Of a stretch of 8,016 nt of DNA, positions 1 through 8,016 are shown in pieces. Below the pieces are notes generated by a model that was not told the DNA's origin, made no database searches, and saw only the letters and a list, made by a program, of their open reading frames with translations. The DNA comes from an uncultured Verrucomicrobiota bacterium (GTDB lineage Bacteria > Verrucomicrobiota > Verrucomicrobiae > Verrucomicrobiales > DEV007): positions 1 through 8,016 of the forward strand of contig CACJBM010000074.1 in the NCBI GenBank assembly GCA_902591645.1. The letters run 5' to 3'. The position numbers and the translations under genes are program-made. Every line of letters begins with the position of its first letter. Position 1 is the stretch's first letter.

Positions 1-1446
1 GGTCAAACTAATGAGAGAGCCATTTATGTAGATGGAGCTCTATCCAACAGTGAGAGTGACGGTCCAATATTTAATACACATGAAACAGACACGAACGGAA
101 CTGTGCTGCCAATCATACTCGGGAACCAAAACGAAAATAACGGAACAAGAGTAGATAATCTTTCTGCGAATCTTAGTATTGCCAAAGTAAAAATCCATGA
201 CCTGCCCCTGACCCTAGAAGAAGTTCAGCAAAGCTATGATCAAGACATGGAAAAATTTGGCAAAGGTGGCCCCGTAATCATTTCATTCGAATCCTCCTCA
301 TCTAGAGTCGAACCAGAAGAAACAGTCATACTAACTTGGGAAATCGATGGCGCCGAAACAATCTCCATAGACAATGGAATTGGAGACGTGACAAACGAAG
401 ATGAATTCGAGGTCAACCCAGATGAAACTACAACTTACACAATAACCGCGTCAAATGATGAAGGACTCACGAAGAAATCATCACTGACTATCTTCGTTTT
501 AGATAGCGGGGCCCTCATAGACATAGATCTCACCAACGCAGAATTAGGTCCACTCCCAACTATTATAAATAACGGATCTCTCAGCGGTGATTTTGAAGCC
601 GAATTTGACATTCCAAATGTAGAAAACATCGATGGGGTAAATGCTGTTACTCTTGATGGATTTAATGACTGGTACGTAGGGCCAGATTCAACTCCTCTGA
701 CTGGTGACGCTGACAGATCAGTCGAAGCTTGGGTATGGAACCCCTCAGTACCGGCAGAAGAAACCATAATCGCTTGGGGCAGAAGAGGCGGTCCCGATGC
801 CACGAACTGGTCAATGCTATATGGAAATCATGGGACATGGGGAGCTCTAGGAGGTTGGGGCGGTTCAGCCGACATGCCATTCCAAGCAGGAGGAGGCGCA
901 CCTTCGATCAATGAGTGGCACCATCTCGTTCTCACTTATGATGGTCAAAGCAACGAAAGAGCGATTTACGTTGATGGCGTATTATCCAACTCAGAAAATG
1001 ACGGACCAACATTCAACACCCATGAGACCGACACTAATGGAACACCACTGCCAATCGTAATAGGAAACCAGAACGAAAATAATGGAACAAGAGTAGACAA
1101 TCTTTCTGCGGAACTTAGCATAGCCAAACTTAAAGTTCATGACTACTCACTCACGCTCGACGAAGTCCAGGAAAGTTTTGACACATCGAGAGCAACTTTC
1201 GGTAAAGGAGGCCCAAGAATTTCCTCTTTCCTAGCCTCAGCGAACCCCATAAACGAAAACGACACAGTCACACTCACTTGGGACATTGCAGGAGCTGAAT
1301 CAATTAGCATCGACAACGAAATTGGTGACGTCACGGATCTCGATGAGATTGAAATTCAACCAGATGAAACAACAAGCTATACGATAACAGCGACTGATTC
1401 AGAAGGCGTATCACAAGAAAAAGAAATAACTATCTACATCATCGGC
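1..1446 (+). repeat. Tandem LamG-A + Ig-like module (one partial and one full copy, 942-bp period)
   Basis: The module at 1-504 (partial, cut by the window edge) recurs at about 508-1446. Aligned anchors are GAG-AGA-GCC at 13 and GAA-AGA-GCG at 955, an offset of 942 bp or 314 residues. Shared protein landmarks include ERAIYVDG, FNTHETDTNGT, GNQNENNGTRVDNLSA, FGKGGP and, in the Ig-like part, IDN-IGDVT followed by PDETT-YTITA. Synonymous differences are frequent, so this is an old or diverging duplication, not a fresh one. Further copies may lie to the left of the window. Confidence 0.88.
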
Positions 1447-3408
1447 AAAGCTAACCTAATCCATCAATGGACATTTGATGAAAATGGTGGGGCCGGAACA
1501 ACGCTCATAGACTCTATCGGAGGCGCTGACGGAACCATAGTGGACCAAGGACCCAATGACGGAACCGTATCTGACGGACAAGTCACACTGAGCGGCGGCG
1601 GTAAAAATGAGTCTGACTATGTCAGGTTCCCTTCAAATCTAGTAAGCGGACTCTCAAACATGAGTATTGAGACATGGTCAACTCAGCACTCTTCTCAGAA
1701 CTGGTCCAGAGTCTTTAGTGTCGGGTCTTCAACCAGCAATGTAATACACATGTCATTTTCAAGAGGAACTAACATCAACCAGAATGAACTGCGATGGAAC
1801 TCAGGAGCAAACATAACGTTACAGGATTTTGGCGGCGCACCACCTAACCCAATTGACGAACAAGTTCACTGGGTCCTGACCGTTAATGATGTTGGAGGCC
1901 CTAACGGCGAAACTCAAATCACCATATTCAAGAACGGAGAAGAAGTGCGTAACGGAACCACTACTAACGATCTTTCAGGACTTGATGATTCTGATTTTTT
2001 TCTCGGACGTTCTCAGTGGGGCGACAGTACCGCGAACGCATCATGGGATGAATTCCGAATCTACGACGGACTGCTCACTTCGGAACAAATTAAGAGTAAC
2101 ACTGAATCCGGACCTTCACTTTCAGTCGATTCTGACGGTGACGGCATTTCCGACTCGATAGAAGATCGGTACGACTTCCTCGATGCTGAAGATCCAAACG
2201 ATGCTGGCCTGGACCAGGACGATGACGGTCTTACCAACTTGCAGGAAGTAGATTTAGGTAGCGATCTGGAAGAACAAGACACTGACAATGATGGCATTAT
2301 CGATGGCGAAGAGGTCGCAGCAAAGACTTCTCCAACTGATGCGGACACTGACAATGATCAACTCAATGACGGGGAAGAAATCATAGCTGGAACTGATCCC
2401 CTCGACCCAGACACTGATGGTGACAAAATTTCAGACGGGATTGAAGTTGAAAACAATTCGGATCCACTTGATCCGACAAGCTTGCCTAAGCCGAAGCTAC
2501 CAGAGCTCATACACAGATGGGCATTTGACGAAACAGGAGGATCAGGGACAATACTTATAGACTCCGTCGGAGGCGCGCATGGCATCATTGAAGATTCAGG
2601 AACCAACGACGGATCCGTGGCAGATGGAAAAGTTACCCTCTCGGGAGGAGGCAAAGCCGACTCAGACTTTGTTAGATTGCCTGCAAATTTAGTGAGCACC
2701 CTACAAAGCGCTACTATAGAAACTTGGTCCACTCAGCACGCCTCACAAAACTGGTCCAGAGTCTTCTCCGTAGGTTCATCCTCAAGCAACGTAATGCACA
2801 TGTCATTTACAAGAGGAACCAACATCAACCAAAATGAACTGCGCTGGAACGCACAAACAAACATGACCCTTCAAGACTTTGGCGGCGCACCACCTAACCC
2901 AATTGACGAACAAGTGCACTGGGTAGTGACTATAGATGACACGGGCGGACCAGCAGGTGAAACTAACATCGTTATCTACAAGAACGGTGACGAAGTCAGG
3001 ACAGGAAACACTACAAATGATCTATCAGGATTGACTGACACAGATTTCTTCCTTGGAAGATCGCAATGGAATGACAGCACAGCTAATGCATCGTGGGACG
3101 ATTTTCGAATCTATGACGGAGCCATGGACCCTATAGCCGTTAAGTTCAGCAACGCACAAGGACCTGACACGGCACCTGGCCAGATTCCATTTGAGATCAC
3201 TAATATTACTTATTATGCAGATTCTCAAACTGCAGACGTAACTTGGAATTCAAAACCTGGTATAAATTATATCATATGGGTCTCAGAGGACGGACAAGAT
3301 TGGGCAGACGTGGACGACGCTTTCGAGTCTGAAGGCGACACAACTACATACACAGACATTGAAGCCACTTCCCGGCGACTATTAATTAGAATTGAAGTCT
3401 CTGAATAA
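1..3408 (+). CDS. Giant modular LamG / Ig-like / TSP3-repeat exoprotein, C-terminal part (5' end outside window)
   Basis: The frame is open from base 1 and ends at TAA 3406-3408; the ATG at 103 is internal, because bases 1-102 already encode LamG sequence that is repeated downstream. Domains by nucleotide: end of LamG copy A1 (1-270), Ig-like 1 (271-504), LamG A2 (508-1212), Ig-like 2 (1213-1446), LamG type B1 (1456-2115), five TSP3-like calcium-binding repeats (2128-2475), LamG B2 (2506-3165), and a C-terminal beta-rich domain (about 3181-3408) of a kind common at the ends of verrucomicrobial exoproteins. About 1135 residues are visible, with no cysteine and many Asp, Asn, Gly, Ser and Thr residues, as expected for a secreted or surface protein. 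LamG domains are concanavalin A-like folds that bind glycans or proteins, so a role in adhesion or polysaccharide binding is inferred, not shown. No enzyme motif and no PEP-CTERM or LPXTG anchor was seen at the C-terminus. It converges with the ebo operon, with 6 bp between stop codons. Confidence 0.9.
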   Translation, partial: GQTNERAIYVDGALSNSESDGPIFNTHETDTNGTVLPIILGNQNENNGTRVDNLSANLSIAKVKIHDLPLTLEEVQQSYDQDMEKFGKGGPVIISFESSSSRVEPEETVILTWEIDGAETISIDNGIGDVTNEDEFEVNPDETTTYTITASNDEGLTKKSSLTIFVLDSGALIDIDLTNAELGPLPTIINNGSLSGDFEAEFDIPNVENIDGVNAVTLDGFNDWYVGPDSTPLTGDADRSVEAWVWNPSVPAEETIIAWGRRGGPDATNWSMLYGNHGTWGALGGWGGSADMPFQAGGGAPSINEWHHLVLTYDGQSNERAIYVDGVLSNSENDGPTFNTHETDTNGTPLPIVIGNQNENNGTRVDNLSAELSIAKLKVHDYSLTLDEVQESFDTSRATFGKGGPRISSFLASANPINENDTVTLTWDIAGAESISIDNEIGDVTDLDEIEIQPDETTSYTITATDSEGVSQEKEITIYIIGKANLIHQWTFDENGGAGTTLIDSIGGADGTIVDQGPNDGTVSDGQVTLSGGGKNESDYVRFPSNLVSGLSNMSIETWSTQHSSQNWSRVFSVGSSTSNVIHMSFSRGTNINQNELRWNSGANITLQDFGGAPPNPIDEQVHWVLTVNDVGGPNGETQITIFKNGEEVRNGTTTNDLSGLDDSDFFLGRSQWGDSTANASWDEFRIYDGLLTSEQIKSNTESGPSLSVDSDGDGISDSIEDRYDFLDAEDPNDAGLDQDDDGLTNLQEVDLGSDLEEQDTDNDGIIDGEEVAAKTSPTDADTDNDQLNDGEEIIAGTDPLDPDTDGDKISDGIEVENNSDPLDPTSLPKPKLPELIHRWAFDETGGSGTILIDSVGGAHGIIEDSGTNDGSVADGKVTLSGGGKADSDFVRLPANLVSTLQSATIETWSTQHASQNWSRVFSVGSSSSNVMHMSFTRGTNINQNELRWNAQTNMTLQDFGGAPPNPIDEQVHWVVTIDDTGGPAGETNIVIYKNGDEVRTGNTTNDLSGLTDTDFFLGRSQWNDSTANASWDDFRIYDGAMDPIAVKFSNAQGPDTAPGQIPFEITNITYYADSQTADVTWNSKPGINYIIWVSEDGQDWADVDDAFESEGDTTTYTDIEATSRRLLIRIEVSE
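1456..2115 (+). repeat. LamG type-B domain, copy 1 (220 codons)
   Basis: This copy begins at LIHQWTFDE and ends at a Gly-Pro just before the TSP3 region. It aligns without length change to 2506-3165. Shared landmarks are TLSGGGK, IETWSTQH, NWSRVFSVGSS, RGTNINQNELRWN, DFGGAPPNPIDEQVHWV, FFLGRSQW and FRIYDG. The pattern fits the concanavalin A-like LamG_3 family, whose usual role is carbohydrate or protein binding. It differs from the A-type LamG earlier in the same protein. Confidence 0.87.
2128..2475 (+). repeat. Thrombospondin type-3-like calcium-binding repeats
   Basis: There are five Asp-rich units with the D-x-D-x-D-G pattern of TSP3 repeats. The first starts at 2128 (DSDGDGISD). The other four start at 2212, 2278, 2344 and 2410, at an exact 66-bp (22-residue) period, each ending in a turn such as TDPLDP. 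TSP3 repeats bind calcium and stiffen extracellular linkers. Units 4 and 5 carry Gln or Lys where the consensus has Gly (DTDNDQL, DTDGDKI). The array sits exactly between the two type-B LamG domains and probably acts as a calcium-dependent spacer. Confidence 0.88.
2506..3165 (+). repeat. LamG type-B domain, copy 2 (220 codons)
   Basis: This is the second copy of the domain at 1456-2115, offset by 1050 bp and of identical length. A run of 38 nucleotides (2878-2915) is identical to 1828-1865, inside the segment encoding FGGAPPNPIDEQV. The rest of the copy carries scattered synonymous and conservative changes. It follows a short Pro/Lys/Leu-rich linker (about 2482-2505) and precedes the C-terminal domain. 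Confidence 0.87.
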
Positions 3409-3414
3409 GGACCA

Positions 3415-4617
3415 CTACTTGCAATGAGCTGCTACCCTAGCCTTCAACTCATCAATAGATTCTAAAACCTCAGCTTCATCCATTTCATTTAGCTCTATTT
3501 TGCGTCCAATTTCAGGCACAAAAGTGATAGTCAACTTACCCCCAAGGTGCTCTCTAAATTCTTCGAGTCCATGCAAAATAACGGATCTCCCCCCCTCTGC
3601 TCTGTGCAGGTCTGAATCATAGATATCAAATCCGACAGCCTCTATCAAAGACAGGGCCCGCTCACAATCTTCAGAGGACATTAGCCCTATCCTTTTGGAA
3701 TAAATTAGATCGACTGCCATGCCAATAGCAACGGCCTCACCATGTCCTATACGAAAAGCACTGATTTGCTCGAGCTTGTGAGCGACCCAATGCCCATAGT
3801 CAAGGGGACGAGCTGAGCCCAATTCATAAGGGTCTCCCGAAGTGGCAATATGATCAACGTGCTCTTCAGCGCTACGCCTTATGATTCTTTCAAGCGCATC
3901 ATCATTCAACTCGTTGAGCTGAGATGAGCACTGTTCAATTTTCTCATAAAAGTCCCTACTCCTGACCATTGCCACTTTGATCGCCTCAATGATCCCTGCC
4001 CTCTTAGATCTTTCATCAAGTGTCTGTAAAAAAGAAAAATCATTAATAACTGCATAAGGAACAGCAAATGTTCCAACCCAATTCTTCTTACCGAAGAAAT
4101 TAACTCCATTCTTCACTCCGACACCACCATCGCCCTGACTCAGGCTAGTCGTTGGAATTCGTATCATTCGAACGCCCCGATGAGCAGTAGATGCAGCAAA
4201 ACCCACAAGGTCCAAAAAAGCACCACCACCAATGGCCATCACAAATGAATGCCGGTCAATTGAGTTTTCACTGATCGATCTCCAGATCTCAGGGACTAAT
4301 GACCAATCATTCTTACATGGCTCACCTCCAGGCAACACGATAGGAGATTCAACCAGTTCAAGCTCACCGTCTCGGCCACTGAACCATGAACTGATGTCAC
4401 GCAATAAGTTCTGATTACCCCCCACAACTCCACCATCAACAAATGCAATGACGCGGTGCGGAAAATCACCATCTGACCTAGCAATGACATCAGCAAGTAC
4501 AGAGTTTTCAGGAGAAAAAAGGTTCCTTGTAAACTCTATCCTATGGGCAAGTTCAAGATGAATGGGTCGCTCAATCATTAGTTCTGTGAAATTTTCGCAG
4601 AACAAGAACCTAAGCAC
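3415..4617 (-). CDS. eboD: EboD, 3-dehydroquinate-synthase-like sugar phosphate cyclase
   Basis: This is a 400-residue protein of the sugar phosphate cyclase family (NAD and divalent metal dependent) and the last gene of the ebo cluster. Visible motifs: the NAD-binding stretch AIGGGAFLDLVGF (128-140), PTT (155-157), KNGVNFFGKKN (169-179) matching the substrate-binding K-x-x-V-N segment, E211, R270, the pair H276/H280 in DYGHWVAHKLE, and H292 in GHGEAV. E211, H276 and H292 correspond to the three metal ligands of AroB, so the protein looks catalytically complete. GHWVAH replaces the usual AroB GHTFGHA, which fits the EboD branch and not a housekeeping AroB. The real substrate of EboD is unknown. 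The longest start is GTG at 4617; ATG at 4578 (residue 14) gives an N-terminus closer to what I expect for the family, and neither has a Shine-Dalgarno. The gene lies 60 bp after eboC and ends 6 bp from the convergent LamG gene. Confidence 0.9.
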   Translation of the reverse strand: MLRFLFCENFTELMIERPIHLELAHRIEFTRNLFSPENSVLADVIARSDGDFPHRVIAFVDGGVVGGNQNLLRDISSWFSGRDGELELVESPIVLPGGEPCKNDWSLVPEIWRSISENSIDRHSFVMAIGGGAFLDLVGFAASTAHRGVRMIRIPTTSLSQGDGGVGVKNGVNFFGKKNWVGTFAVPYAVINDFSFLQTLDERSKRAGIIEAIKVAMVRSRDFYEKIEQCSSQLNELNDDALERIIRRSAEEHVDHIATSGDPYELGSARPLDYGHWVAHKLEQISAFRIGHGEAVAIGMAVDLIYSKRIGLMSSEDCERALSLIEAVGFDIYDSDLHRAEGGRSVILHGLEEFREHLGGKLTITFVPEIGRKIELNEMDEAEVLESIDELKARVAAHCK

Positions 4618-4646
4618 TTTTGAGTAATTAATCCAGTCACAGCATG

Positions 4647-4658
4647 ATCCTTAAGGAT
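4647..4658. repeat. Perfect 12-bp palindrome between eboC and eboD
   Basis: ATCCTTAAGGAT is its own reverse complement and lies in the 60-bp gap between the eboC stop (4678) and the eboD GTG (4617), about 30 bp upstream of that start. It has no loop, so a stable RNA hairpin is unlikely; a dyad protein-binding site is possible. A 12-bp palindrome can also arise by chance in AT-rich sequence, so no function is claimed. Confidence 0.4.
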
Positions 4659-4677
4659 TAAATATATTCAATATCGC

Positions 4678-5541
4678 TCAAGTACCTGAGACCTTGGCCT
4701 GGAACCAGATAACAAGAGGCAAGAGAGGAACAAAGAAGAGTCCATACAAGCCCAAGTGAGAAGAAAGCGCAAAAGCATCAATCAGAACCATCCCTGCTAT
4801 CAAATATGAAACTGCCCTACCCACTCGCCCATCATCACTCCCTTTAATGATGCAGAGACAATAGATCGTCCAGGAGAGCCAAAGAGAACCTGCGACTACT
4901 GATCCAATTAAATGGAATTGCAATGAATTAAAACTCAGATAGACAGGAACAATGACCGGGCACAACAAAAAGATAAAACCATAGATCTTCACTTCCCTAT
5001 CAGTCGCCTCCCCCCTAGCAACGACGGTGATCCCGGCAGTATACAAGCCAAGACAAACGCACCATGCAAAAACGCTGTGCGGTATATTATCCGAAACTGC
5101 CGAAGCGCATGAAAGATAGAGAATGGACCGGCAGGCTCCCATAATATAAACCGAATGGGACCAGCGTTTGTGAAAAAAGTTGTATGCAATAATCACGATG
5201 CTCAATGCCAGAACGAAAAGCAATTGCGCACCTCCAAGAATCATAATCGTCAATCCAGACACCATAAATATCAGAGTAAGAATGACTGCTAAACGTTTTG
5301 ATACAATTCCCGATGGAATTGGCCTATCAGGTCGGAACTCATTATCAAATGCAACATCAAAAACATCATTCATGACCATTCCACCTGAATAAAATAATGC
5401 CGCTCCAAGTACCAGTACTAATAAATTGAATTCTCCAAGAGCCGCGCCTGCTATTAACCATGATCCAACACAATTAGAAAGGACCGTAGGCAAATTAGAT
5501 ATCCTGCACAAATCCAATATACCTTTGGTTTTATTGTCCAT
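4678..5541 (-). CDS. eboC: EboC, UbiA-like polytopic membrane protein
   Basis: This 287-residue, strongly hydrophobic protein has about eight to nine predicted membrane segments in the inner membrane. It belongs to the UbiA prenyltransferase superfamily. The first Asp-rich motif N-D-x-x-D-x-x-x-D is intact at 58-66 and is followed by RPDRPIPSG (70-78), the classic UbiA sequence. A further conserved element is MGACRSILYL (134-143). The second Asp-rich motif of true UbiA enzymes is replaced by a sparser acidic stretch around ARGEATDREVKIYG (175-188; E178, D181, E183). It may therefore transfer a prenyl-like group to a transported precursor or act mainly in trafficking; the ebo literature has not settled the reaction. 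The ATG at 5541 lies only 6 bp after the eboE stop, which suggests translational coupling, and there is no Shine-Dalgarno. A housekeeping UbiA or MenA is unlikely given the neighbours. Confidence 0.9.
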   Translation of the reverse strand: MDNKTKGILDLCRISNLPTVLSNCVGSWLIAGAALGEFNLLVLVLGAALFYSGGMVMNDVFDVAFDNEFRPDRPIPSGIVSKRLAVILTLIFMVSGLTIMILGGAQLLFVLALSIVIIAYNFFHKRWSHSVYIMGACRSILYLSCASAVSDNIPHSVFAWCVCLGLYTAGITVVARGEATDREVKIYGFIFLLCPVIVPVYLSFNSLQFHLIGSVVAGSLWLSWTIYCLCIIKGSDDGRVGRAVSYLIAGMVLIDAFALSSHLGLYGLFFVPLLPLVIWFQAKVSGT

Positions 5542-5547
5542 TTATAT

Positions 5548-6720
5548 TTAAACGAGTCCGACCCGCTTTAACCCATCTAGGGTCCATTGATATTCTTTGA
5601 CCAATTGCTCAACAACATCTCCTGACTGCATTTCTTCTGGCAACACTTCCCAAGTATAAGTTTCCATTTCAAGGTGCTGGCAGAGCGAAGGGTCATCCTT
5701 CAAAAGGTCAAGAACGTCCTCAATGTGGTCCCTAGTGTCATTAAATTGACTGCCAGGACTGCTGTGCAGCGGTATATGAAAATGAACTCTCCACTCCTCA
5801 TCATCACACTCACCTGCGCTCATGGCATACTCTAAAGCATCAGGCAAGTCTCTGTACCTTTGCAGCGATCCGTCCTTTGCCTTTGCCACTACCTGATGCA
5901 AATAAACATCGTCCTCAAATCCTTTGAGGGTTTTTAAGTTTTGTGGTGCAGGTGACAATCTCAATGCTGAGCTTAAGTGCAGCTTACTTATTCTAATGTT
6001 CTTTTCTTTTAGTGCGCCAAACGCATCGACTGCAGATTCAAATTCAATTGCAAGATGACAAGTATCATAATTGACACCAAGGACAGAATCATAAAAACCT
6101 CCCTTAGCCGACCGGAACCTATCAAAGAAATCAACAGTCTCAGCTGTGCTTTCAAACCAACCCAAAGGCTCAGGCTCTAAGCCAAGATGCAAATCCATCC
6201 CAGTCTGTTCGACTAAACTCGCGATGTGGTCTCCGCACTGAGCAATATTATCAACAATAAGGTCACCCTGAACTCCATCATCACTAATGAACTCCTTAAA
6301 AGAACCAGGCAATGTGCTGACACTCCCGGCAATTCCAGGAGGCAATAACTTGACCAGTATATCAAAGAGAAGATTCGTATAATCGACTCTACTCTGATGG
6401 GTCCAATCAGGCCGATAAACCTGCTCCTTAACACGAGCACCATGGAACTGCCCATACGGGAATCCATTTATGGTAAAAACATAACAATTGTTCTTCTCGA
6501 GCCAAGCCTTGAAATCTTTAAGATTATCAGTCCTCGAATCATTAAGCTCAAGGGCCGCCGAATGGCCCAATCGTAAGCCGATAGCATAGGGCAGATCAGG
6601 ACAAACTTCAGCCCTTACCCTCAAAGTGTAATCCTCTAATGTCTTAAAGGTCTCATCCCATCCCTCGCCCCGATGAATATTGGTACAATAGGCAAGATGA
6701 ATACCTTCATTTAGTTCCAT
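5548..6720 (-). CDS. eboE: EboE, xylose-isomerase-like TIM-barrel metabolite traffic protein
   Basis: This 390-residue cytosolic-type protein has no signal peptide. Signature motifs of EboE are clear: HLAYCTNIHRGEGWDE (8-23), IGLRLGHSAA (47-56), VFTINGFPYGQFHG (81-94), VYRPDWT (101-107) and GSVSTLPGS (132-140). The barrel carries candidate metal ligands in the order usual for the AP-endonuclease-2 / xylose-isomerase-like fold: E182 and E184 in LEPEP, D219 and H222 in NYDTCHLAIEFE, H248, H313/H315 in VHFHIP, and E351/E353 in HLEMETYTW. It probably isomerises or epimerises a polar, sugar-like intermediate, but no substrate has been established for the family. The start at ATG 6720 leads directly into the conserved N-terminus. 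The gene lies 41 bp after eboB and 6 bp before eboC. Finding it between eboB and eboC departs from the canonical order, where it follows eboD. Confidence 0.93.
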   Translation of the reverse strand: MELNEGIHLAYCTNIHRGEGWDETFKTLEDYTLRVRAEVCPDLPYAIGLRLGHSAALELNDSRTDNLKDFKAWLEKNNCYVFTINGFPYGQFHGARVKEQVYRPDWTHQSRVDYTNLLFDILVKLLPPGIAGSVSTLPGSFKEFISDDGVQGDLIVDNIAQCGDHIASLVEQTGMDLHLGLEPEPLGWFESTAETVDFFDRFRSAKGGFYDSVLGVNYDTCHLAIEFESAVDAFGALKEKNIRISKLHLSSALRLSPAPQNLKTLKGFEDDVYLHQVVAKAKDGSLQRYRDLPDALEYAMSAGECDDEEWRVHFHIPLHSSPGSQFNDTRDHIEDVLDLLKDDPSLCQHLEMETYTWEVLPEEMQSGDVVEQLVKEYQWTLDGLKRVGLV

Positions 6721-6761
6721 TGGATTTAATAGTTTTAAATGAAGATCAGCACCATTGCACC

Positions 6762-7568
6762 TTAAGACAACTTAAACTTAGGATTTTGGCCCATGAATTG
6801 AGCAGGATTTAGATAGACGACTTTATCAATAAATGAATCATCATAGCCTCTCCTCTTCATCTCAAGAGCAGCTTTAGGAACTGACAGAGGATCACTGACA
6901 CCCCAATCACAAGCGCTGTTCATCCAAACCCTCTCGTGCCCATACAATTCAAGCATGTCCACTGCCCGGTTCGGGGTAACTTTAGATTCGGGATAAAGCG
7001 TCATTCCTGCCCAGAACCCCTTATCGATAACCAACGGCGCAGTGTGCTCCTCGACATGATCAATTATGACCTTCGACGGATCGACACTAGAATGATTAGA
7101 CAATGCATCAACGATAAGCTTAGTGCCCTTCAACTTATCCTCGAGGTGTGGAGTGTGGACGAGAATCATCTGATCATGATCAACGGCAAGTTGAATGTGT
7201 TCTTCAAGAATCTGCAGCTCATTACGAGTATTTTTATTTAGACCAATTTCACCGATACCAAGAACATTATCACAATCAATGAAATCAGGGATAATTGATA
7301 TGACTTCACGAGCAAGCCCAACATCCTCAGACTCTTTTGGATTAATGCAAAGCCAGCAATAATGGTCTATACAAAACTTTGCAGCCCGTTTCGGTTCGTA
7401 CTCAGTTATCTGACGAAAATAATCATAAAAACCCTGCGACGAGGCCCTATCAAATCCGGCCCAGAAAGCAGGCTCATTGACTGCCTTACAGCCGGCGCAG
7501 GCAAGTGCCATATAGTCGTCCGTAGTTCTACTCACCATGTGAGCATGTGGTTCAATGTATCGCATCAC
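6762..7568 (-). CDS. eboB: EboB, TatD-family metal-dependent hydrolase
   Basis: This 268-residue amidohydrolase-type TIM barrel is about the usual TatD length. Metal-site residues are all visible: H8-x-H10 in EPHAHMVSRTTDDY, E107 in IGEIGLNKN, H138 in LVHTPH, H171 in IIDHVEEHT, and D221 in NSACDWGVSDPL. The N-terminal HMVSRTTDDY and NEPAFWAG (31-38) separate it from DNA-repair-type TatD and fit the EboB branch. It probably hydrolyses a phosphoester or amide in the compound handled by the cluster; this is inference from the superfamily. The first two codons are GTG (7568) and ATG (7565); the ATG is at least as likely. It starts 11 bp after the stop of the 90-residue gene, without a Shine-Dalgarno, and is followed by eboE after 41 bp. 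Confidence 0.91.
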   Translation of the reverse strand: MMRYIEPHAHMVSRTTDDYMALACAGCKAVNEPAFWAGFDRASSQGFYDYFRQITEYEPKRAAKFCIDHYCWLCINPKESEDVGLAREVISIIPDFIDCDNVLGIGEIGLNKNTRNELQILEEHIQLAVDHDQMILVHTPHLEDKLKGTKLIVDALSNHSSVDPSKVIIDHVEEHTAPLVIDKGFWAGMTLYPESKVTPNRAVDMLELYGHERVWMNSACDWGVSDPLSVPKAALEMKRRGYDDSFIDKVVYLNPAQFMGQNPKFKLS

Positions 7569-7579
7569 TTAATAATTAT

Positions 7580-7852
7580 TTATTGTTCTGGAGATGGCGC
7601 ACCAAATGCCCCTTGTATCGTTGATTCACTTACAGGTTCAGCCGATTGATCACTCAATAGATTAAGGACTCGAGCAGCCCTGCCTGGCTCAGCACTGAGA
7701 AGCTCCGGCAAAGCCTCCTTAAGAGCCGCCACCCTATAATCATCTGACTGCTCATGTCTATCAATACGATCAAGGAAAGCAGCAATATCAATGAGTTTGA
7801 TTCGGGCATCCATGAAACCCAAATCGACGAGGTTAGTTTTTTTCTCTGACAC
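7580..7852 (-). CDS. Small unrecognised protein at the head of the ebo cluster
   Basis: This encodes a 90-residue protein starting at GTG 7852, or 77 residues from ATG 7813 (residue 14); the latter begins MDARIKLIDIAAFLDRID. An in-frame stop at 7865-7867 rules out an earlier start. The core (about 14-70) is rich in Ala, Leu, Asp, Glu and Arg and reads as two or three amphipathic helices, LIDIAAFLDRIDRH then VAALKEALPELLSAEP and AARVLNLLSD. The tail (71-90) is probably disordered. There is no signal peptide, membrane segment, cysteine or known catalytic motif. I do not recognise the family. It holds the place of eboA in canonical clusters, yet is much shorter than EboA proteins and I see no EboA-like motif. 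The 11-bp gap to eboB and shared strand argue that it is a real operon member, perhaps a small partner protein. It starts 40 bp after the stop of the right-edge partial gene. Confidence 0.78.
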   Translation of the reverse strand: MSEKKTNLVDLGFMDARIKLIDIAAFLDRIDRHEQSDDYRVAALKEALPELLSAEPGRAARVLNLLSDQSAEPVSESTIQGAFGAPSPEQ

Positions 7853-7892: not shown

Positions 7893-8016
7893 CTATTTTG
7901 AGTTCTTTTTTAAAGTCATTAGATACTCAACTAAATCGACAAGATCATCTTTGGTCATAGCAGAGACTAAACCGGATGGCATTAATGATACTCCGAGAGG
8001 AACCCTCGATTCGACT
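7893..8016 (-). CDS. C-terminal 40 residues of a probable PVC-type haem-binding / cytochrome c domain protein (5' end outside window)
   Basis: On the minus strand the frame is open from the right edge to TAG at 7895-7893. The 40 visible residues contain PLGVSLMPSGLVSAMTKDD followed by LVDLVEYLMTLKK. This S-x-M-P-x-G-L then helix D-L-V-x-Y-L-x-x-L pattern is typical of the end of haem-binding c-type cytochrome domains in planctomycete and verrucomicrobial proteins, where the Met is the candidate axial ligand and the final helix packs on the haem. The CXXCH haem-attachment site would lie outside the window and cannot be confirmed. The gap of 40 bp to the small-protein gene is AT-rich and shows no clear hairpin, so read-through into the ebo genes is possible. 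Confidence 0.65.
   Translation of the reverse strand, partial: VESRVPLGVSLMPSGLVSAMTKDDLVDLVEYLMTLKKNSK

Follow-up and report, generated by a model that had tools for sequence, protein, structure and literature searches.

A probable eboG-type ebo operon in Verrucomicrobiota, and evidence that EboA-EboB and EboG-EboB may be exchangeable gene pairs

Known ebo clusters and the locus under study

The ebo gene order ABCDEF is reported to be restricted to Bacteroidetes, Cyanobacteria, Leptospira and algal plastids; other orders have been published, as have clusters with genes scattered or lost (Yurchenko et al. 2016, PMC5133447). A small gene, eboG, replaces eboA in some organisms, Deinococcus among them, and a split of EboB according to whether A or G accompanies it has already been noted (PMC5133447). 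The role of ebo genes in periplasmic transport derives from scytonemin-making Nostoc (PMC6282210), and a homologue of EboC from other organisms has farnesylated quinolines in vitro (PMC9235831). The subject here is a five-gene ebo locus on the minus strand (3415-7852) of an 8,016-nucleotide (nt) stretch of DNA from an uncultured Verrucomicrobiota bacterium (contig CACJBM010000074.1); "the window" denotes that whole stretch. Among verrucomicrobial clusters that of the window is an ordinary one, of an already known type. The value of the case lies in what its relatives contribute on the pairing of EboA or EboG with EboB: EboA or EboG would be the dedicated partner of EboB, the pair would be swapped as a plug-in module onto a stable E-C-D-F pathway, and EboB would be a zinc enzyme, a reading to which we assign a probability of about 0.55.

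The window shares with the eboG-type operon of Deinococcus, Truepera and Herpetosiphon (PMC5133447) the small eboG in the place of eboA and an EboB that lies outside the A-type clade, and with the operon on a Deinococcus plasmid (order D-G-B-E-C-F) the block G-B-E-C. It differs in that eboD comes first in Deinococcus but after eboC in the window, and in that neither the window nor its four nearest loci (L001-L004) have eboF at the end of the operon. With the ABCDEF operon of Bacteroidetes, Cyanobacteria and eustigmatophyte plastids it has homologues of EboB, EboC, EboD and EboE in common; that operon, however, has EboA, lacks EboG and is ordered otherwise, and the window's EboC is only 27% identical to that of Aureibacter. 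EboB of the window is 57% identical to the Deinococcus protein and 43% to that of Aureibacter (BLASTP). The satellite ebo cluster of Nostoc punctiforme (PMC6282210) encodes enzymes that are homologous by family but serves the scytonemin pigment pathway, whereas relatives of the window have cytochrome and Rieske-type genes upstream.

The small gene, which the sequence-only reading of this DNA had left unnamed, can with confidence be called eboG, the published alternative to eboA. It finds no match in NCBIfam or Pfam; 194 of 200 candidate protein clusters in a large protein database match it at E ≤ 0.01. The name is given because of its similarity to the small gene that precedes eboB in the Deinococcus plasmid operon (40% identity over 84 residues; E 1e-9 in a comparison among only 21 proteins; hhalign probability 98.6), together with the published description of eboG (PMC5133447). 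The Deinococcus gene is itself called EboG from its position and the text of that paper. AlphaFold2 models EboG as three helices (pLDDT 80.4, pTM 0.60); a fold search against the PDB gave 44 weak matches, none at E ≤ 0.001, and a profile search of solved structures gave nine at E ≤ 1, the best at 0.18. The idea that EboG is a divergent EboA finds no support: profile similarity is not significant (hhalign probability 0.7, E 0.081). A protein search for EboA yielded only three proteins. Both proteins do show a stretch resembling D-x-R-x-x-A-L-x-x-A-L-P-x-L. NCBIfam and Pfam scans found no EboA in the window, nor did NF035938 find any in the genomes G001-G004. Inspection by eye of the sequence before eboG in four genomes revealed no convincing promoter (no promoter scan was made).

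Two kinds of EboB pair within one family

The sample consists of 74 genomes of the family to which G001 belongs. Since rpoB was found in only 68 of them, some assemblies are incomplete. Matches were obtained for EboE in 62 (60 over cut-off), EboB in 64, EboD in 64 (62 over cut-off), EboF in 62 and EboC in 62; all five occur together in 50 of the 74, counting G020, whose sole EboB is of a third type described below. EboA is over cut-off in 45 genomes and EboG is strong in 17 and weak in six. EboA and strong EboG coincide in one genome only (Fisher P 1.4e-7, which takes no account of kinship and is not relied on as a probability). That genome is G051, an 8.3-Mb assembly with one A-B and two G-B pairs (L111, L117, L164), by real coexistence or as a mixed bin. 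EboE is present, with neither EboA nor EboG over threshold, in G020, G026, G042 and G058.

Each small partner goes with its own kind of EboB. EboB at 66-96% identity has EboG adjoining in 18 of 18 stretches, and EboB at 41-46% identity has EboA alongside in 41 of 45, the four exceptions being G018 (contig end), G058 (partial EboA) and G073 and G074 (EboA on other contigs). Seven additional genomes from the phylum, chosen on other grounds, have EboB at 52-71%, and in all seven an EboG-like open reading frame (ORF) directly precedes EboB (by profile, E 1e-13 to 1e-30); plain tblastn detects EboG in only one of these. In the EboB tree the A-type proteins, including those of Proteobacteria and Bacteroidetes, are set apart from all others by a branch with support 100, and EboB of the window falls among the G-type rows.

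On the rpoB tree, two changes of the A/G state are required, both forced by well supported branches: the G-B pair of G023 and G030 sits deep inside an A-type group, and EboE of these two genomes lies there too. Both rpoB (p 2.4e-9) and EboE (p 0.0098) reject a tree in which the eboG genomes form one clade (56 labelled rows each). (These are trees of a quick kind, and the label counts leave out G051 and unlabelled genomes; the EboE tree joins the long branches of other phyla and is not used across phyla.) Near mutual exclusion, a separate EboB type for each partner and rejection of a single eboG origin by both trees argue that A-B and G-B are, as judged by these comparisons, quite likely exchangeable two-gene modules on a shared E-C-D-F core. 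No description of such an exchange inside one family was found in the openly licensed literature searched.

Old coexistence of both pairs followed by differential loss could produce the same pattern with no swap: an ancestor would have had both eboA-eboB and eboG-eboB, and lineages would have lost one or the other. G051, which holds both, fits this history, and G011, G013 and G015 hold an A-B pair along with the third pair. Against it, EboA and strong EboG share just that one genome of the 74, and mixed bins could account for it; differential loss is possible but rather doubtful.

A rival reading sees in the cluster a precursor-export system of the kind proposed for scytonemin synthesis in Nostoc, which would make a lipid carrier to bring an aromatic precursor into the periplasm. 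It is supported by deletion phenotypes in Nostoc (PMC6282210). Neither the window nor those genes of relatives that were scanned showed an aromatic-compound pathway, in line with the sequence-only reading, which had recognised no pigment or other biosynthetic genes beside the cluster: the window, five genes of L001 and ten of L294 and L292 were scanned, and scytonemin genes were likewise not found in them. Moreover, ebo genes occur in most genomes of the family (EboE in 62 of 74), and EboB and EboE share a contig in ten of 16 G-type genomes but in none of 40 A-type genomes. Because the genes are so widely held and E and B are unlinked in the A-type, a general metabolite suits better than one pigment, and export on the Nostoc model is unlikely here.

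A third EboG-EboB pair beside metal-related genes

A third type of EboB, 48-50% identical to that of the window, is found in six genomes of the family and in two more among 387 drawn from the phylum, making eight loci (L119-L124, L281 and L282; the pair lies, for example, at L122:4071-5138 and L120:3589-4657). A short EboG-like ORF stands just upstream in seven of the eight, the eighth ending at a contig edge. Near the pair are genes for a COG0523/CobW GTPase (four loci), ThrRS (three), CysRS (three), PyrC (one) and a Fur-family regulator (two). At least one of these markers occurs in six of the eight loci, as compared with none of 104 other loci (L001-L086 and L101-L118, which partly overlap one another); none was found in L283-L289 and L292-L294 either. 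The FUR, CobW, ThrRS and CysRS calls are backed by Pfam and NCBIfam, the Fur-family gene being over the cut-off of PF01475. The marker queries were drawn from L119, L120, L122 and L123, so that the independent loci are L281 (Fur only), L282 (ThrRS, CysRS and two CobW at 34%), and L121/L290 and L124 (none). The three ThrRS near the pair show no N-terminal TGS domain match in a Pfam scan. An ordinary ThrRS carries that domain, and its missing match fits, but does not prove, that these are second copies.

In G015, G040 and G363 the EboG-like gene is closely preceded by a palindrome, TGAGAAYNNRTTCTCA (five sites, Table 1); in G015 and G363 it stands between that gene and a divergent Fur-family gene. 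The exact palindrome is in no other fetched locus (the pattern was written after the sites had been seen), and with up to two mismatches it turns up at four scattered places in 1.95 Mb of other loci. It is a probable Fur-family operator.

Alongside the third-type pair, G317 and G363 have an ordinary EboB and EboE, while the third type is the sole EboB in G020, G022 and G040. G040 has the third-type pair but gave no matches to any of E, C, D, F and EboA, which may reflect an incomplete assembly or a stand-alone pair. At L282:11526-11759 a second EboG-like ORF (34.8 bits) lies between the CysRS and CobW genes, with no adjoining EboB.

Haas et al. 2009 (PMC2770081) name nine families of zinc enzymes that have Zur-regulated paralogues, PyrC, CysRS and ThrRS among them. 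The third-type pair stands, like these, beside COG0523, CysRS, ThrRS or PyrC; the likeness concerns relatives of the window and not the window itself, EboB is not among the nine families, and TatD does not occur in the text of that paper. By analogy the third pair may be a spare copy of a zinc enzyme. Such neighbours are an indirect hint that EboB is a zinc enzyme with EboG as its partner: that EboB uses zinc is, on this analogy, rather more probable than the opposite, and that EboG and EboB form a physical complex is probable.

The contrary view, that the third pair is unrelated to metal limitation and neighbours tRNA synthetases and a CobW GTPase by chance, can point to the two loci of the eight that lack any marker and to the absence of the palindrome upstream in G011, G020, G022 and G317. 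The markers' confinement to third-type loci in this comparison, and a palindrome that recurs in three genomes, in two of them facing a divergent Fur-family gene, speak against chance, which is quite improbable.

The partner-module reading with a zinc-dependent EboB nevertheless has a number of observations to contend with, beyond the differential loss already discussed. Two of the eight third-type loci, on short contigs (7.3 and 3.3 kb), show no marker, and the four genomes without the palindrome amount to four of the seven loci with upstream sequence, of which G013 has none. Instead of Zur, the Fur-family regulator may be Fur or PerR; models for PerR, Irr, Fur and Zur all score low on it and so do not assign it to Zur. 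Support for the split between G-type and third-type EboB is only 62. As to the shared core, eboF is neither in the window nor in the G-B-E-C-D clusters of the four nearest loci. EboC reaches only 115.7 bits with its best NCBIfam model, NF035940, against a cut-off of 250. The substrate specificity of EboD is not derivable from its matches, since at least 13 of 16 solved relatives are named dehydroquinate (DHQ) synthase or AROM. Among the pathway steps proposed below, that of EboC has an in vitro result, in other organisms; the others are inferred from protein families.

Family assignment of the enzymes

The identity of the cluster as ebo is virtually certain. The sequence-only reading had recognised EboB, EboE, EboC and EboD on one strand with short gaps, and models, controls and BLASTP agree with it (the gaps from eboG through B, E and C to D are 11, 41, 6 and 60 nt in the ORF listing). 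It had also taken the source to be probably verrucomicrobial, and a 97% match to EboE is named Akkermansiaceae bacterium. The models recognise EboE and, through PRK06203, EboD over their cut-offs; for EboC the Ebo model is the best match but stays below its cut-off.

EboE scores 430.5 bits with NF035939 (TIM_EboE; cut-off 250) in the NCBIfam scan; its Pfam match to AP_endonuc_2 is under cut-off, and it has no solved-structure relative at E ≤ 0.1. EboD scores 506.4 bits with NF004852/PRK06203 (cut-off 333) and 216.4 with the AroB model TIGR01357 (cut-off 305), and three annotated ebo operons give the identical pattern. For EboC, the Pfam match to UbiA (68.2 bits) and the position in the cluster fit. 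With the EboC model the Deinococcus and Azospirillum proteins likewise fall short (106.9 and 89.1 bits) and that of Aureibacter passes (342.5), so that the cut-off of NF035940 looks tuned to Bacteroidetes-type EboC.

EboB matches the NCBIfam TatD model weakly (23.2 bits, cut-off 206) and Pfam TatD_DNase barely above cut-off (28.9 bits against 27), a Pfam match published as general for EboB (PMC5133447). Its one solved relative is the uncharacterised AF_1765. Candidate metal ligands HxH, E, H, H and D, to which we presumptively assign their roles from the amidohydrolase superfamily, are conserved in all 13 aligned rows, which represent all three EboB types.

That these are housekeeping genes (a TatD DNase, AroB, UbiA or MenA, a sugar isomerase) brought together by chance, as the marginal TatD match, the sub-threshold AP_endonuc_2 match and the UbiA match might suggest, is refuted on model scores, with EboE over its equivalog cut-off, AroB under its own, and the same gene set recurring in one order across 48 of 48 informative loci, as well as in annotated ebo operons, and it deserves practically no credence.

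Gene order, layout and neighbours

Gene order was surveyed by an EboE scan of genome contigs, of which the best 80 among at least 584 confirmed stretches, that is, the nearest, were taken; their titles, where they name a group below 'bacterium', name Verrucomicrobia. Genes within 6.5 kb of eboE were counted (EboD-like matches 8-10 kb off on the other strand, in L059, L067 and L069, were excluded). All 48 loci that show at least two ebo genes fit G-B-E-C-D-F: 12 have all six genes, five G-B-E-C-D, 11 G-B-E-C, four G-B-E, three E-C-D-F, two E-C-D, nine E-C, one B-E-C and one G-B-E-C-F. The other 32 have E alone and are uninformative on order; unlinked A-B pairs in family members account for part of these, and short contigs perhaps for others. 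The 48 informative loci make G-B-E-C-D the usual order of the phylum. Hence the sequence-only description of the cluster as rearranged is misleading, and a move of eboE is not supported, the more so as G-B-E-C is found in Deinococcus too and orders other than ABCDEF are published (PMC5133447). The stem 'verrucomicrobi' does not occur in the main text of that paper.

The locus is likely an eboG-type ebo operon in this usual order, with eboF probably elsewhere in the genome. In all four near-relative genomes eboF is present outside the operon; in G001 it lies on the same contig about 31 kb before eboG, with genes for ribosomal protein L19 and pyruvate kinase downstream of it. Compared with the relative G047, all five ebo genes have ratios of nonsynonymous to synonymous substitution rates (dN/dS) of 0.02-0.14 and are therefore under purifying selection. 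Of the two candidate starts of eboD (Table 1) the downstream one is likelier, on sequence comparison, because the first start codon in the relative G044 is the matching Met. In L002 (9050-9945) EboB is split over two frames.

Table 1. Features of the window and, in the last row, palindrome sites in relatives
Feature	Position	Strand	Description
eboG	7580..7852	-	90 aa, GTG start, small helical protein
eboB	6762..7568	-	268 aa, metal-dependent hydrolase, TatD-like superfamily, eboG-type
eboE	5548..6720	-	390 aa, xylose-isomerase-like TIM barrel
eboC	4678..5541	-	287 aa, UbiA-like membrane prenyltransferase, DxxDxxxD motif (NDVFDVAFD)
eboD	3415..4617 (start perhaps 4578)	-	400 aa, sugar-phosphate cyclase, DHQ-synthase superfamily
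Cytochrome-c gene, partial (3' end)	7893..8016	-	matches C-terminus of L001:7728-8828, Pfam Cytochrom_C
Large LamG/TSP3-repeat protein, 5' end open	1..3408	+	Pfam Laminin_G_3 and TSP3_bac; convergent, outside operon
TGAGAAYNNRTTCTCA sites	L120:4725-4740, 4771-4786; L122:5188-5203; L281:8946-8961, 8991-9006		upstream of third-type EboG gene

The end of the cytochrome-c gene lies upstream of eboG, co-directional and 40 nt away. A homologue is upstream of the cluster in nine of the 17 strong-EboG genomes (G001, G047, G044, G038, G039, G002, G004, G003 and G046), a DUF7133 gene takes its place in G068, and neither was found upstream in the other seven (in G070, 2.2 kb of upstream sequence was covered). 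G044 has, at a greater distance upstream, CcsA-like, ResB, cytochrome b and Rieske genes; in part of the window's clade (L294:6113-17748; window 7893-8016) a series of cytochrome-c, DUF7133, CcsA-like, ResB, cytochrome b and Rieske genes has ebo directly behind it. On a Gemmatirosa plasmid (L085:4614-12235) eboG, eboB, eboF and an eboC-like match share one strand, eboE is on the other, and a DUF7133 gene adjoins. Plasmids of Aureibacter (L082:1064-4124) and Mycetohabitans (L086:2072-5090), from two phyla, have a long hypothetical gene and then a 'ferritin-like protein' gene before ebo.

A LamG/TSP3-like gene also follows eboD in L001, L003 and L004. In the window 6 nt separate it from eboD, and the large protein contains similar internal blocks. 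A seemingly conserved 30-member neighbour group (cluster 4) was discarded as an artefact: the 14 members whose positions were inspected overlie EboE, EboB or EboG on the opposite strand.

A possible pathway and what it would mean

From the protein families (PMC5133447, PMC9235831, PMC6282210) a pathway may be proposed. EboD would cyclise a heptulose phosphate to a cyclitol. In the membrane, EboC would attach a prenyl chain to the cyclitol or to another ring. The molecule would be finished by EboB, acting as a zinc-dependent hydrolase for which EboG serves as dedicated small subunit, and by EboE, as a TIM-barrel isomerase or epimerase; EboF would cleave a phosphate ester. What results would be either a membrane-bound carrier or a prenylated metabolite. 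That it is a prenylated cyclitol is a tentative suggestion, a little short of even odds, and a carrier or transport role in this organism is doubtful.

Most genomes of the family surveyed hold the ebo set (50 of 74 with E, B, C, D and F), yet it can be largely unlinked, so that a search relying on gene clustering alone would overlook it. The ebo genes are widespread, and EboA, EboG and EboB are the least understood of their products; if true, the reading of EboA or EboG as partner subunit of a zinc-dependent EboB would be the first biochemical handle on them.

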